Positions 56,013 through 59,974 of a stretch of 64,000 bases of DNA are shown in pieces. This stretch comes from Roseicyclus marinus (GTDB lineage Bacteria; Pseudomonadota; Alphaproteobacteria; Rhodobacterales; Rhodobacteraceae): NCBI RefSeq assembly GCF_036322625.1, contig NZ_AP027266.1, positions 2,793,001 through 2,857,000 on the forward strand. Reading direction: 5' to 3'. Both the position numbers and the translations under genes were made by a program. Below the pieces are notes generated by a model that had not been told where the DNA came from, did no database searches, and was given only the letters and a program-made list of their open reading frames with translations. Each line of letters opens with the position of its first letter. The first letter of the stretch is position 1.

Positions 56013-56804
56013 ATGACACGGATCGACGACACCTTCGCGCGGCTCAAGGCCGAGGGGAAAAAGGCCTTCGTGGCCTATGTCATGGCGGGCGACCCGGATT
56101 ACGACACCTCGGTCGAGATCGTGAAGGCGCTGCCGGGCGCGGGTGTGGACATCATCGAGCTGGGAATGCCCTTTACCGATCCGATGGCCGATGGCGAAAC
56201 GATCCAGTTGGCAGGCCAGCGCGCTCTGGAAGGCGGTCAGACGCTCGACAAGACGCTGCAGATCGCGCGCGAATTGCGCAAGAGCGATGACAAGACCCCC
56301 ATCGTGATGATGGGCTATTACAACCCGATCTATTCGCGCGGCGTCGACACCTTTCTGGCGCAGGCCAAGGAAGCGGGGATCGACGGCCTGATCATCGTCG
56401 ACCTGCCGCCCGAGGAAGATGACGAGCTGTGCATTCCGGCGCAAAAGGCGGGGCTGAATTTCATCCGGCTGGCGACCCCCACGACGGATGGCAAGCGCCT
56501 GCCCAAGGTGCTGCAGAACACGAGCGGTTTCGTCTATTACGTCTCGATCACCGGGATCACGGGTGCCGCCGAGGCGGATGCGGCGCAGGTCGCCCCCGAG
56601 GTGGCGCGGATCAAGGCCGCGACCGATCTGCCGGTGATCGTGGGCTTTGGCATCAAGACGCCCGAGGCGGCGCAATCCATCGCGGGCATCGCGGATGGCT
56701 GCGTCGTGGGATCGGCCATCGTGGCGCAGATCGCGGCGGGCAAGCCCGTGGGCGAGATCGCGGATTTCGTCGCGGGGCTGGCGGCGGGGGCGCATCGCGC
56801 CTGA
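56013..56804 (+). CDS. trpA: Tryptophan synthase alpha chain
   Basis: 263 residues, a TIM barrel. [19 protein letters not shown] holds the catalytic Glu and Asp, [10 protein letters not shown] the active-site loop, and [11 protein letters not shown] the phosphate-binding loop near the C-terminus. Releases indole from indoleglycerol phosphate for TrpB. No other trp gene is in the window. The stop codon lies within the first of three 30-bp repeats. Confidence 0.97.
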
Positions 56805-56886
56805 GGGCGCGTTGAGGCGCAGGGTTGCGCCTGAGGGCGCGTCACGGTCAGGTGTCGCGCCTGAGGGCGCGTCACCTGCAATCGAG
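56797..56886. repeat. Three 30-bp tandem repeats with hairpin core
   Basis: The 16-bp core GCGCCTGAGGGCGCGT begins at 56797, 56827 and 56857, exactly 30 bp apart; the other 14 bp differ. Each core can fold into GCGCC-TGAG-GGCGC. The first copy contains the trpA stop. As the unit is a multiple of three, open frames across it show a ten-residue repeat, but I do not think it codes. Confidence 0.8.
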
Positions 56887-56895
56887 CTTTGGGTG

Positions 56896-57031
56896 ACGGA
56901 AAACGCGCGTTTTCCGTTTGGCAAATCCCGGGATTTTCCGGTGGGAAAACCCGGGTTTTCCCGTGCGGAAATCTCGAGATTTCCGGGGCGAAAAACTGCA
57001 GTTTTTCGAAACGCAAAACTGCAGTTTTGCA
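56896..57031. repeat. Array of six distinct palindromes at exact 23-bp spacing
   Basis: Successive palindromes: CGGAAAACGCGCGTTTTCCG, GGCAAATCCCGGGATTTTCC (one mismatched pair), GGGAAAACCCGGGTTTTCCC, CGGAAATCTCGAGATTTCCG, CGAAAAACTGCAGTTTTTCG, and GCAAAACTGCAGTTTTGC. Their centres lie at 56906.5 and every 23 bp after that, with three-base spacers. Sequence differs between units, yet symmetry and the AAA..TTT frame are kept. It fills the gap between convergent trpA and valS. Confidence 0.92.
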
Positions 57032-57034
57032 GCG

Positions 57035-59974
57035 TCAGCCGATGGCGGACAGACGGTCCAGCGCGTCCTTGATCTTGGCGGCTTCTTCCTCGCGGGCGGC
57101 CAGGTTCTCGCGGGCTTCTTCCACGATCTCCTCGGGCGCGCTCTCGATGAACTTGGGATTGCCCAAGCGCCCCTTGAGGCCCCCGATTTCCTTGCCGAGC
57201 TTGTCCATCACCTTGGCCAGACGCGCCTTTTCCTCGGCCACGTCGATCAGGTCGGCGATGGGCAGGCCAAAGACCGCACCATCCGCCGCGACCGTCACCG
57301 CCCCCTTGGGCATGGCGGACACCTGCGTCACCTGGGACAGGCGGGCGAGGCGCTCGATCATCGCGGCGTTGCGCGCGAAAGCGGCTTGCCCTTTCTCGTC
57401 AAGCTCCACCTGCAACAGTTGCACCTTGAGGCCTGCGGGCACATGCATCTGCGCGCGGACGGAGCGGATTTCCTCGATCAGGCCGATGACCCAGCCCATT
57501 TCGCGAGAGGCTGCATCGTCGATCAGCTCCGCGCCATACTCCGGCCAATCGGCATGGACCAGCATCTTGGGCCGGTCCGCGATGGCGCCCCAAAGCTCTT
57601 CGGTGATGAAGGGCATGGTGGGATGCAGGAGGATCAGGCATTGGTCGATGACCCAGGCCATGGTCGCGCGTGTTTCCGCGATGACGCTCTCCTCGCCCGA
57701 GGTCAGAAGTGGCTTGGCGAATTCGACATACCAGTCACAGACGCGCCCCCAGACAAAGGCGTAAAGCCCGTTGGCGGCATCGTTGAAGCGGTAGGATGCC
57801 AGCGCCTCGTCATGGGCCAGCCGCGCGCGGGCGGTTTCGCCGACGATCCATTTGTTGACCGTCTGGGTGACGGCGCCCGGGTCGAAACCGGCGACCGGCT
57901 TGCAGTCGTTCATCTCGGCAAAACGGGCGGCGTTCCAGAGTTTGGTGCCGAAATTGCGGTAGCCCGCGATGCGGTCCTTGGACAGTTTCAGGTCGCGCCC
58001 CATGGCGGCCATGGAGGTCAGGGTGAACCGCAGGGCATCGGCCCCGAATTCCTCGATCAGTTCCAGCGGATCGAGGACATTGCCGATGGATTTCGACATC
58101 TTGCGCCCCTTCTCGTCTCGGACGAGGGCGTGGACATAGACATCGCGGAAGGGCACGTCGCCCACGACGGCGAGCTGCATCATCATCATCCGGGCGACCC
58201 AGAAGAAGATGATGTCGAAGCCCGAGACAAGGGTGGAGGTCGGGAAATAGCGCTTGAGTTCCGGCGTCTGTTCCGGCCAGCCAAGCGTTCCGATGGGCCA
58301 GAGACCCGAGGAGAACCAGGTGTCGAGGACATCGGGGTCGCGGGTCAGCGCCTTGCCGCCGGATTTGGCAACGGCCTCGGCCTCGGTCGGCGCGCAATAC
58401 ATGCCGCCGTCCTCGTCATACCACACCGGGATCTGGTGGCCCCACCAGAGCTGGCGCGAGATGGTCCAGGGTTCGATATTCTCGAGCCAGTGGAAATACA
58501 CCTTGCGGTGCTGTTCGGGCATGATCCGGGTGCGGCCGTCGCGCACGGCATCGAGCGCGGGACCGACGATTTTCGCGGTGTCCACGAACCATTGGTCGGT
58601 CAGCATCGGTTCGATGACGACCTTGGACCGGTCGCCATGCGGCTGGGTGATGGTCTTGGCCTCGACAAGGGGGACGAGGGCGGGGGTGGCGTTGGATTGG
58701 TGGGTTTCACCCACCCTACCGGGGTCCGTAGGGTGGGTGGAACCCACCATTTTCCCCAGGCGCGGATCGTCGGGTGTGGTCATCACGGCCAGACCCTCCG
58801 CCGTGATCTCATCGATCACGCGGGCGCGCGCCTCGTAGCGGTCGAGGCCGCGCAGATGGTCGGGGACGAGGTTCAGCGCATCGGCCTCGACCTCGGTCAG
58901 GGTCTTTTCGCCATTGGCCACGGCCTGCGCGATGGCGGCGGCCTCGGCATAGGGGGTGCCGTCGGCGCGCATCTGCGCGCGGGTGTCCATCAGGCGGTAG
59001 CAGGGAATGCCGCCGCGCTTGGCCACGCCGTAATCGTTGAAATCATGCGCGCCGGTGATCTTGACCGCGCCCGAGCCGAAATTCGGGTCGGGGTATTCAT
59101 CGGTGATGATCGGGATCAGGCGGCGGTGTTCCTTGGGGCCCACGGGAATTTCGCACAGCATCCCCACGATGGGTTTGTAGCGGTCGTCATCGGGATGGAC
59201 GGCCACCGCGCCATCACCCAGCATGGTTTCGGGGCGCGTCGTGGCGATGGAGATGTAATCCCGCGTCTCGCGGAGCGTCACGTTCCCGTCTTCATCTTTC
59301 TCGACATATTCATAGGTTTGTCCACCGGCGAGCGGATATTTGAAATGCCACATATGGCCGGGGGTATCGATGTTCTCGACCTCGAGATCGCTGATCGCCG
59401 TCTCGAAATGCGGGTCCCAGTTCACCAGCCGCTTGCCGCGGTAGATGTAGCCCTTTTCGTACATGTCCACGAAGACCTTGATGACGGCATCGTGGAAATT
59501 TCCCTCTTCGCCCGCGGGGGCGCCCGGCGCGCCGGACATGGTGAAAGCCTCGCGCGACCAGTCGCAGGATGCCCCCAGCCGCTTGAGCTGCTGGCGGATC
59601 GTGCCGCCCGATTTCGCCTTCCACGCCCAGACATGGGACAGGAATTCCTCGCGGGTCATGTCGCGGCGGGATTTGCCCTCCTTGGCCAGTTCGCGTTCGA
59701 CGACCATCTGGGTGGCGATGCCCGCATGGTCAGTGCCCGGCTGCCACAAGGTGTCGAAGCCGCGCATCCTGTGCCAGCGCGTCAGCACATCCTGCAGCGT
59801 GTTGTTGAAAGCATGGCCCACATGCAGGACACCCGTGACATTGGGCGGCGGGATCATGATCGAAAAGGGCTCGGCCCCCGGCCGTGCATTGGCCCCGGCC
59901 TTGAAGCATCCGCGCGCCTCCCATTCGGCGGCGATGCGCGGTTCGGCTTCGGCGGCGTTGAAACTCTTGTCCAT
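57035..59974 (-). CDS. valS: Valyl-tRNA synthetase
   Basis: 979 residues. HIGH-type motif in [15 protein letters not shown] (about 43-57), KMSKS in [10 protein letters not shown], editing domain in between, and a C-terminal coiled coil. Charges tRNA-Val and edits Thr. Near residues 409-426 there is an insert ([16 protein letters not shown]) encoded by a nested palindromic DNA repeat. The reading frame is intact. It has no neighbour in an operon. Confidence 0.97.
58698..58749. repeat. Nested palindromic repeat inserted in frame in valS
   Basis: A 52-bp inverted repeat: 22-bp arms (21 of 22 matching) around CGGGGTCC. Each arm itself holds GGTGGGT-TTC-ACCCACC, so nested hairpins form. The related word GTAGGGTGGGT is a widespread intergenic repeat type in bacteria. 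Here it lies inside an essential gene and adds about 17 residues to a surface loop. Confidence 0.8.

Follow-up and report, generated by a model that had tools for sequence, protein, structure and literature searches.

What holds six palindromes of differing sequence at exactly equal spacing in the gap between two convergent genes? In the window, by which we mean the whole stretch of 64,000 nucleotides that was analysed, trpA (56013..56804, forward strand) and its convergent neighbour valS (57035..59974, reverse strand), both named by NCBIfam, enclose a row of palindromes whose centres, at 56906.5, 56929.5, 56952.5, 56975.5, 56998.5 and 57021.5, advance in steps of exactly 23 bp. Taken in that order, the units, none of which is assigned to a strand, read GGAAAAC-GCGC-GTTTTCC (unit 1, 56898..56915), GCAAATC-CCGG-GATTTTC (unit 2, 56921..56938), GGAAAAC-CCGG-GTTTTCC (unit 3, 56944..56961), GGAAATC-TCGA-GATTTCC (unit 4, 56967..56984), GAAAAAC-TGCA-GTTTTTC (unit 5, 56990..57007) and GCAAAAC-TGCA-GTTTTGC (unit 6, 57013..57030, closest to the valS stop). 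Five of them form nine of nine pairs in their inner 18 bp and unit 2 has one mismatched pair; the array as a whole lies 93 bp from the trpA stop and 4 bp past the 3' end of valS. The entire window contains 15 palindromes with an arm of 9 and at most one mismatch, six of them in this array, and 20 dinucleotide shuffles of the window produced no two such palindromes 23 bp apart, so that the recomputed centres and the shuffles both bear out the spacing claimed in the original prediction. A coding repeat is ruled out, 23 not being a multiple of three.

The array is one copy of a dispersed, largely genus-level element that lies, in either orientation, just 3' of a number of genes. Searching its own genome (G000, a single Rhodobacteraceae-type contig of 3.55 Mb) with the window array as query returned 47 matches, and chance is excluded as the origin of the window array because the pattern AAA-N8-TTT-N9-AAA-N8-TTT, which describes two successive units, matches 42 times per strand in that genome and its reversed control not once. 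Two finders place 29 and 28 array sites in G000 alone, so the array is not peculiar to the trpA-valS gap. In the other genomes of the genus, G001 to G012, the same pattern gives 48, 20, 20, 24, 4, 8, 41, 0, 18, 28, 49 and 1 matches with controls of 0 or 1; nine of these twelve reach at least 8 matches, and few genomes do so outside the genus. The pattern matches in 66 of 295 genomes of the family, G000 counted among them, and in most of these at about control level; a clear excess over control is seen in, among others, G023 (9 to 1), G314 (6 to 0) and G285 (7 to 2), as pattern counts with the strings unlisted, and the matching strings of G199 and G255 look chance-like. A survey of trpA relatives, in which 44 of 80 trpA loci led to 43 searched genomes, found any match in five and real units in one, the metagenome-assembled Rhodobacteraceae bacterium HLUCCO18 (6 matches, control 0), which has the new symmetric cores AAAAGCCGGCTTTT and AAAATTCGAATTTT. 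The search of relatives by pattern that had been proposed for this locus did find arrays with a 23-bp pitch, largely at the level of the genus. One array of G011 (L205) had no match in a plasmid collection, and phage-borne copies were set aside: the single match in viral contigs (L248) holds no array according to the array finder and is taken as chance. Positions 56700-57200 gave eight matches in Rfam 15 at E values up to 1, all far below the gathering score. Titles and abstract openings in the open-access literature, most subscription journals lying outside the search, describe no such arrays in Rhodobacteraceae, and the available portions of PMC3733652, PMC2267715 and PMC12306157 do not mention Rhodobacter.

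To describe the family we assembled 102 arrays from four species, 28 from G000, 40 from G011, 19 from G001 (part of those present there) and 15 from G002. Extended along the lattice, they contain two units (20 arrays), three (66), four (15) or six (one), 304 units in total, and the window array is the longest. The usual unit, which we call A-type, is G-[GAC]-AAA-[ATCG]-C-NNNN plus its mirror; the T-type unit has swapped arms, GTTTTCC-NNNN-GGAAAAC, and is often an end unit, standing at an array end 50 times and inside an array never. These arrays were fetched by a pattern demanding a 23-bp pitch, which biases their pitch statistics, and less biased evidence comes from a search with a variable gap and from a search for T-type units alone. 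The former permitted pitches of 16-40 and all 14 matches fell at 23. The latter, run on the genome with no array condition, found 15 T-type units, every one with a palindrome exactly 23 bp off (14 of these neighbours perfect, one with 7 of 9 pairs), and the unit at L267 has palindromes 23 bp away on both sides. Off-lattice palindromes near the ends of the 102 arrays number 16, twelve of them at a distance of 22, 24, 45 or 47 bp and four at other distances, against 202 on-lattice neighbour pairs; the 23-bp pitch is strict but not absolute.

The letters that carry this lattice vary: the arms are swappable, as in GTTTTCC..GGAAAAC, any of the four bases may stand at pair 4, and AAAAGCCGGCTTTT, AAAATTCGAATTTT and GGACATCTCGAGATGTCC are in use among relatives. 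Few cores dominate in G000 (CCGG, TGCA, TCGA and GCGC make up 63 of 70 A-type units). The first base of the linker belongs to the palindrome, pair 10 being Watson-Crick in 142 of 151 cases, and from pair 11 outward at most 70 of 151 are paired. One candidate explanation is a putative protein of two-fold symmetry, or else a nucleoid or topoisomerase complex, that would bind each palindrome in double-stranded DNA, with neighbours touching or phased at 23 bp and the row serving as a roadblock or boundary at gene ends. Symmetry that includes the centre pairs and reaches as far as pair 10 would be expected of such binding, as would the strict pitch seen in the variable-gap and T-type searches and mismatches that show no strand preference. 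We nevertheless consider it unlikely, since the inconstant letters just described do not suit it, a sequence-reading dimer would leave the positions it does not read free rather than symmetric, and there are 16 off-lattice neighbours. On the preference of the original prediction for a protein or cruciform over an RNA loop, the sequences point both ways: the symmetric centre would speak for a cause at the level of DNA and the variable letters against a protein that reads sequence.

Placement points to a role at the ends of genes. With gene calls from our own GC-frame script, 49 of the 102 arrays lie between convergent and 47 between tandem genes, five are called divergent and one has no right-hand gene; all five divergent-called arrays overlap an ORF call, leaving no clean case between divergent genes, and 10 of the 46 gene junctions in the window are divergent. 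In 56 of 96 arrays the first A-type unit follows the closest stop codon at 3-12 bp. Of the 47 tandem sites, 12 have a downstream ORF whose called start is 3-29 bp past the last A-type unit, and the calls overlap in eight more. A bidirectional terminator serving the two convergent genes, as had been suggested, thus survives in part: a 3'-end role fits this placement, but nearly half of the arrays stand between tandem genes.

Two sites can be compared across the genus. The valS gap was read, partly by eye, in 10 of the 13 genus genomes (G011, G006 and G012 being outside), and arrays or their remains occupy it in eight of the ten. G000 has its six units; G003, G004 and G010 have three symmetric units each; G007 has two perfect units and an imperfect one with a 6-nt linker; G005 has one perfect unit; and G001 and G002 have decayed units, of which the palindrome finder lists one and none. 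The original prediction held that selection for symmetry would be refuted by non-symmetric sequence at the same site, and the sites are divided on this point: G001 and G002 hold decayed units, G003, G004 and G010 are symmetric throughout, and G007 keeps symmetry in two units and lacks it in one. G008 and G009 carry no array, and on the valS strand they have a plain hairpin followed by T residues, GGCGCGC-AGCAC-GCGCGCC-TTT and GGCGCGC-AAGAC-GCGCGCC-TTT, respectively. At the tandem pair dnaN-recF (named by NCBIfam), judged by eye, an array is present in nine of 13 genomes, short in G012 and partly collapsed in G006, and it is absent from G002, G005, G008 and G009. In G000 it fills the gap (L136, about 2731-2830), leaving 6 bp between its last unit and the recF start codon, and for that reason it may also affect recF translation. 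In G002 and G005, dnaN is followed by GCCTCCGGCGGGC and then ATATTTTTGG or ATATTTTCGG; the GCCTCCGGCGGGCATATTTTTGG-like stretch after dnaN in these genomes (L250, L251), where the array is absent, may be a common 3'-end signal of the group. A terminator scan of L250 found no terminator in that stretch, and for this reason the dnaN-recF site adds nothing to the argument that arrays and hairpins replace one another.

Between species, the units change pair by pair in mirror fashion, centre pairs included, except in G001. We matched 52 orthologous array pairs by their flanks on both sides; the species comparisons have tree branches in common, so that none is independent of the others. Between G000 and G011 (38 units, two having been left out as type changes), the innermost pair, pair 1, shows a symmetric change in 10 units and a one-sided change in one; pair 2 showed nine symmetric, two single and one double asymmetric change, pair 4 eleven symmetric and three single, pair 8 four symmetric and no single, and pair 7 two changes, both symmetric, with pairs 3, 5, 6 and 9 unchanged. 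Between G000 and G002 (31 units), pair 1 changed symmetrically in five units and singly in one, pair 2 in three symmetrically, one singly and one asymmetrically, pair 4 once in each of the symmetric and single ways, and pairs 3 and 9 by one single change each. Fisher tests of left against right change at pair 1 give 2.3e-8 for G000-G011 and 3.5e-5 for G000-G002. The claim that symmetry was kept or re-made is upheld by these data, as orthologous units change on both sides together.

Gene conversion replacing whole units, which had also been proposed, is not favoured for most of them. The numbers of units with 0, 1 and 2 changed pairs in G000-G002 are 19, 9 and 3, where independence expects 18.4, 10.4 and 2.0, and in G000-G011 the numbers with 0 to 5 changed pairs are 12, 15, 9, 0, 0 and 2, with 9.9, 16.1, 9.4, 2.4, 0.2 and 0.0 expected; because both lie near independence, most units were not swapped whole. 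What remains of that claim are the two units with five changes, which may have been replaced, and the more uneven G011-G002 comparison, which fits independence less well (8, 5, 6, 2 and 1 units with 0 to 4 changes; 5.1, 9.1, 5.9, 1.7 and 0.2 expected). The same two units, together with the few dominant cores of G000 and near-identical copies in G011, would also suit a founder effect, in which a few palindromic units would have spread not long ago, bringing their mirrored differences with them by descent, with little paired change since. We judge this very improbable, given isolated paired changes at orthologous sites matched on two flanks, with linkers nearly unaltered (for example, L005 vs L224), and given that the four species compared stand at 88-96% valS identity to G000.

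A mutational origin is another explanation of the symmetry. Here template switching between arms during replication would correct units into palindromes, so that free positions would change in pairs without the unit as a whole being selected, and the arrays would spread and last as neutral or selfish repeats at gene ends, where insertions do little harm. Template switching is reported to homogenize arms and to invert spacers (PMC8604942). Most changes are indeed symmetric pairs, near independent along the unit in two comparisons; the near-identical array copies of G011 occur in both orientations and suggest spread; and asymmetric loops likewise occur both ways round (TTGC 5, GCAA 5), as spacer inversion would give. 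Other features do not suit it: intramolecular switching should, we reason, spare the centre of the loop, yet pair 1 is symmetric in three species; pairs 3, 5-7 and 9 hardly change, which implies that something is selected; arrays are kept at orthologous sites across species; neighbouring units avoid equal stems; and no Y1/RAYT mobiliser was found in 13 genomes. We hold a mutational origin to be improbable.

G001 departs from the other species at the centre. At pair 1, 11 of its units show a one-sided difference from G000 and three a symmetric one, and its A-type units have a palindromic centre in 26 of 44 cases, against 63 of 70 in G000, 80 of 90 in G011 and 26 of 36 in G002; none of its 11 T-type units has one, and the stem pairs of its A-type units are still paired at 95% or more. 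Many of its loops are non-palindromic (for example, at L158, L230, L240 and L242), GCAA/TTGC being the commonest of these, in five A-type and five T-type units; this loop is GNRA-like on one strand.

Neighbouring units, for their part, differ in the stem. Equal letters at pairs 4 and 8 occur in 16 of 136 adjacent A-type pairs where 35.8 are expected if units are dealt anew inside each genome and position class; not one of 2000 shuffles gave so low a count. The avoidance is clear in G000 (P 0.001) and G011 (0.006) and weaker in G002 (0.064) and G001 (0.081); fully equal half-codes are absent where 8.3 are expected, and core identity stands at chance (38 vs 33.1). Such stem avoidance would fit rows of hairpins that must not cross-pair, and loss of equal repeats by slippage would look alike. 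A long hairpin across neighbours, running from A-tract through stem, loop and stem to T-tract, was rejected: it needs equal neighbours, whereas neighbours agree in their cores no more often than by chance and in their stems less often. Kissing of equal loops was rejected as well: in G011, T-type and adjacent A-type units have the same loop 15 times out of 21 (7.8 expected), and elsewhere not above shuffles (4 of 12 in G000, 2 of 6 in G002, 2 of 11 in G001); recent copies may explain the excess in G011.

Predicted folds are consistent with units that close on themselves. On the valS strand the window array has a predicted folding energy of -64.8 kcal/mol where shuffles give -39.6 (z -6.97), and in the predicted minimum-energy structures of the 102 arrays 230 of 304 units self-fold (232 on the other strand), with 60-64 units pairing mainly outside themselves, window units 5-6 and 2-3 among them. 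Linkers lengthen the palindromes, adjoining extensions summing to at least 5 in 64 of 202 inner linkers (maximum 21 in 300 shuffles), and in 21 of the 66 arrays with three units linkers l1 and l2 pair along their whole length, against 5.4% in a cross-array control. A four-way junction closed by the outer linkers l0 and l3 is not supported beyond the family consensus: at least four pairs form in 22 of 66 arrays, near the cross-array control of 0.292, and the junction is closed in the predicted fold of 12-14 of 66. A terminator scan confined to the window array marked one terminator-like site, unit 6 on the valS strand, where shuffles average 1.0, and no clear T-tract follows the hairpins there.

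Placement, the plain hairpin at valS in two relatives and the constraints on the stem together lead us to favour, tentatively and at a little under an even chance, a REP/BIME-like 3'-end element that forms a row of RNA hairpins at message ends. The transcript of the upstream gene would carry successive short hairpins, each with a 7-bp stem closed by C-G and a 4-nt loop and often lengthened into the linker, and these would slow or stop RNA polymerase or shield a 3' end left by Rho or by processing from 3'-5' exonucleases, so that the row would set the boundary of the upstream message. One array could serve both convergent genes, a unit and its reverse complement being almost the same sequence; unlike stems in neighbours would keep every hairpin folding on itself; and at valS the array would have replaced the single GC-rich hairpin seen in G008 and G009. 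The missing clear T-tract and the tight downstream spacing at the 12 tandem sites would favour guarding of the 3' end or partial termination, and full termination at dnaN-recF would silence the next gene because the array ends so close to the recF start.

Hairpins alone do not explain the symmetry of the centre pairs and the fixed pitch. The two innermost pairs sit in the loop, where a hairpin would leave them unconstrained, but among G000, G002 and G011 their changes are symmetric; separate hairpins need no fixed pitch; and the stem mismatches (n=29) comprise 7 GT/TG and 5 CA/AC, showing no G-U preference, nor do the asymmetric loops in tandem sites make a clear choice of strand. A strand signature of RNA through G-U pairs or loop orientation was thus not seen, in small numbers. 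A DNA lattice or template-switch correction would account for either the centre symmetry or the pitch. A broader alternative, to which we give little credence, is a class of element whose defining feature would be self-complementarity on a fixed 23-bp lattice instead of any particular sequence. A process acting on double-stranded DNA, either symmetric complexes arranged in a lattice or repair directed at palindromes, would hold almost all of its bases in mirror symmetry, those at the loop centres too, and the element would replace terminators in this genus with a strand-neutral boundary at gene ends.

Among known systems, the family resembles REP/BIME in placement and in paired stem changes but has neither their constant tag nor their transposase. 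Like REP, BIME and REPIN sequences, the arrays are short dispersed palindromes, often grouped, close past the stops of convergent and tandem genes, and, as is usual for REP/BIME, they are rarely divergent (5 of 102 as called). For those elements the available portion of PMC3733652 describes complementary stem changes and proposed roles in termination, mRNA stability and supercoiling. Unlike them, the arrays here are mostly full palindromes through the centre, keep a 23-bp pitch and have neighbours that differ in stem letters; the REP tag appears in the 102 arrays as GTAG/CTAC anywhere in five and CGTC/GACG in 22, at no constant place. REP with RAYT is ruled out, the RAYT domain (Y1_Tnp, PF01797) being absent from all 13 genus genomes, the own genome included; the control search did detect it in 5 of 14 known genomes, one of them that of E. 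coli. Bidirectional intrinsic terminators, too, are palindromes that lie between convergent genes and have an A-tract in one arm and a T-tract in the other, and at valS in G008 and G009 a plain hairpin stands in for the array; in contrast, the window array has no clear T-run after a hairpin, the arrays set two to six hairpins in a row, and they also lie between tandem genes, as at dnaN-recF. CRISPR arrays likewise have short palindromic units at a regular pitch, whereas here the spacing sequences are just 5 nt and the repeats vary while their mirror symmetry stays.

Paired changes normally mark RNA stems, and here they include two centre pairs that no hairpin can form. The family thus offers a natural test of whether palindrome symmetry arises through selection on DNA, selection on RNA or template-switch repair, with comparison material in about 28 arrays of G000, sites common to sister species, two plain-hairpin sites and a species, G001, in which centre symmetry is partly lost. 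It may also show how a lineage swaps terminator hairpins for a multi-hairpin row. At the other end of the same gap, a short hairpin, [TC/TT]GCGCC-TGA-GGGCGCGT, occurs at 56795-56872 of the window in three copies 30 bp apart, the first of which spans the trpA stop codon. Similar tandem hairpins, read by eye, stand at the trpA end in relatives, two in G002 and G003 and about four in G005, a second and unrelated multiplication of a 3'-end hairpin.
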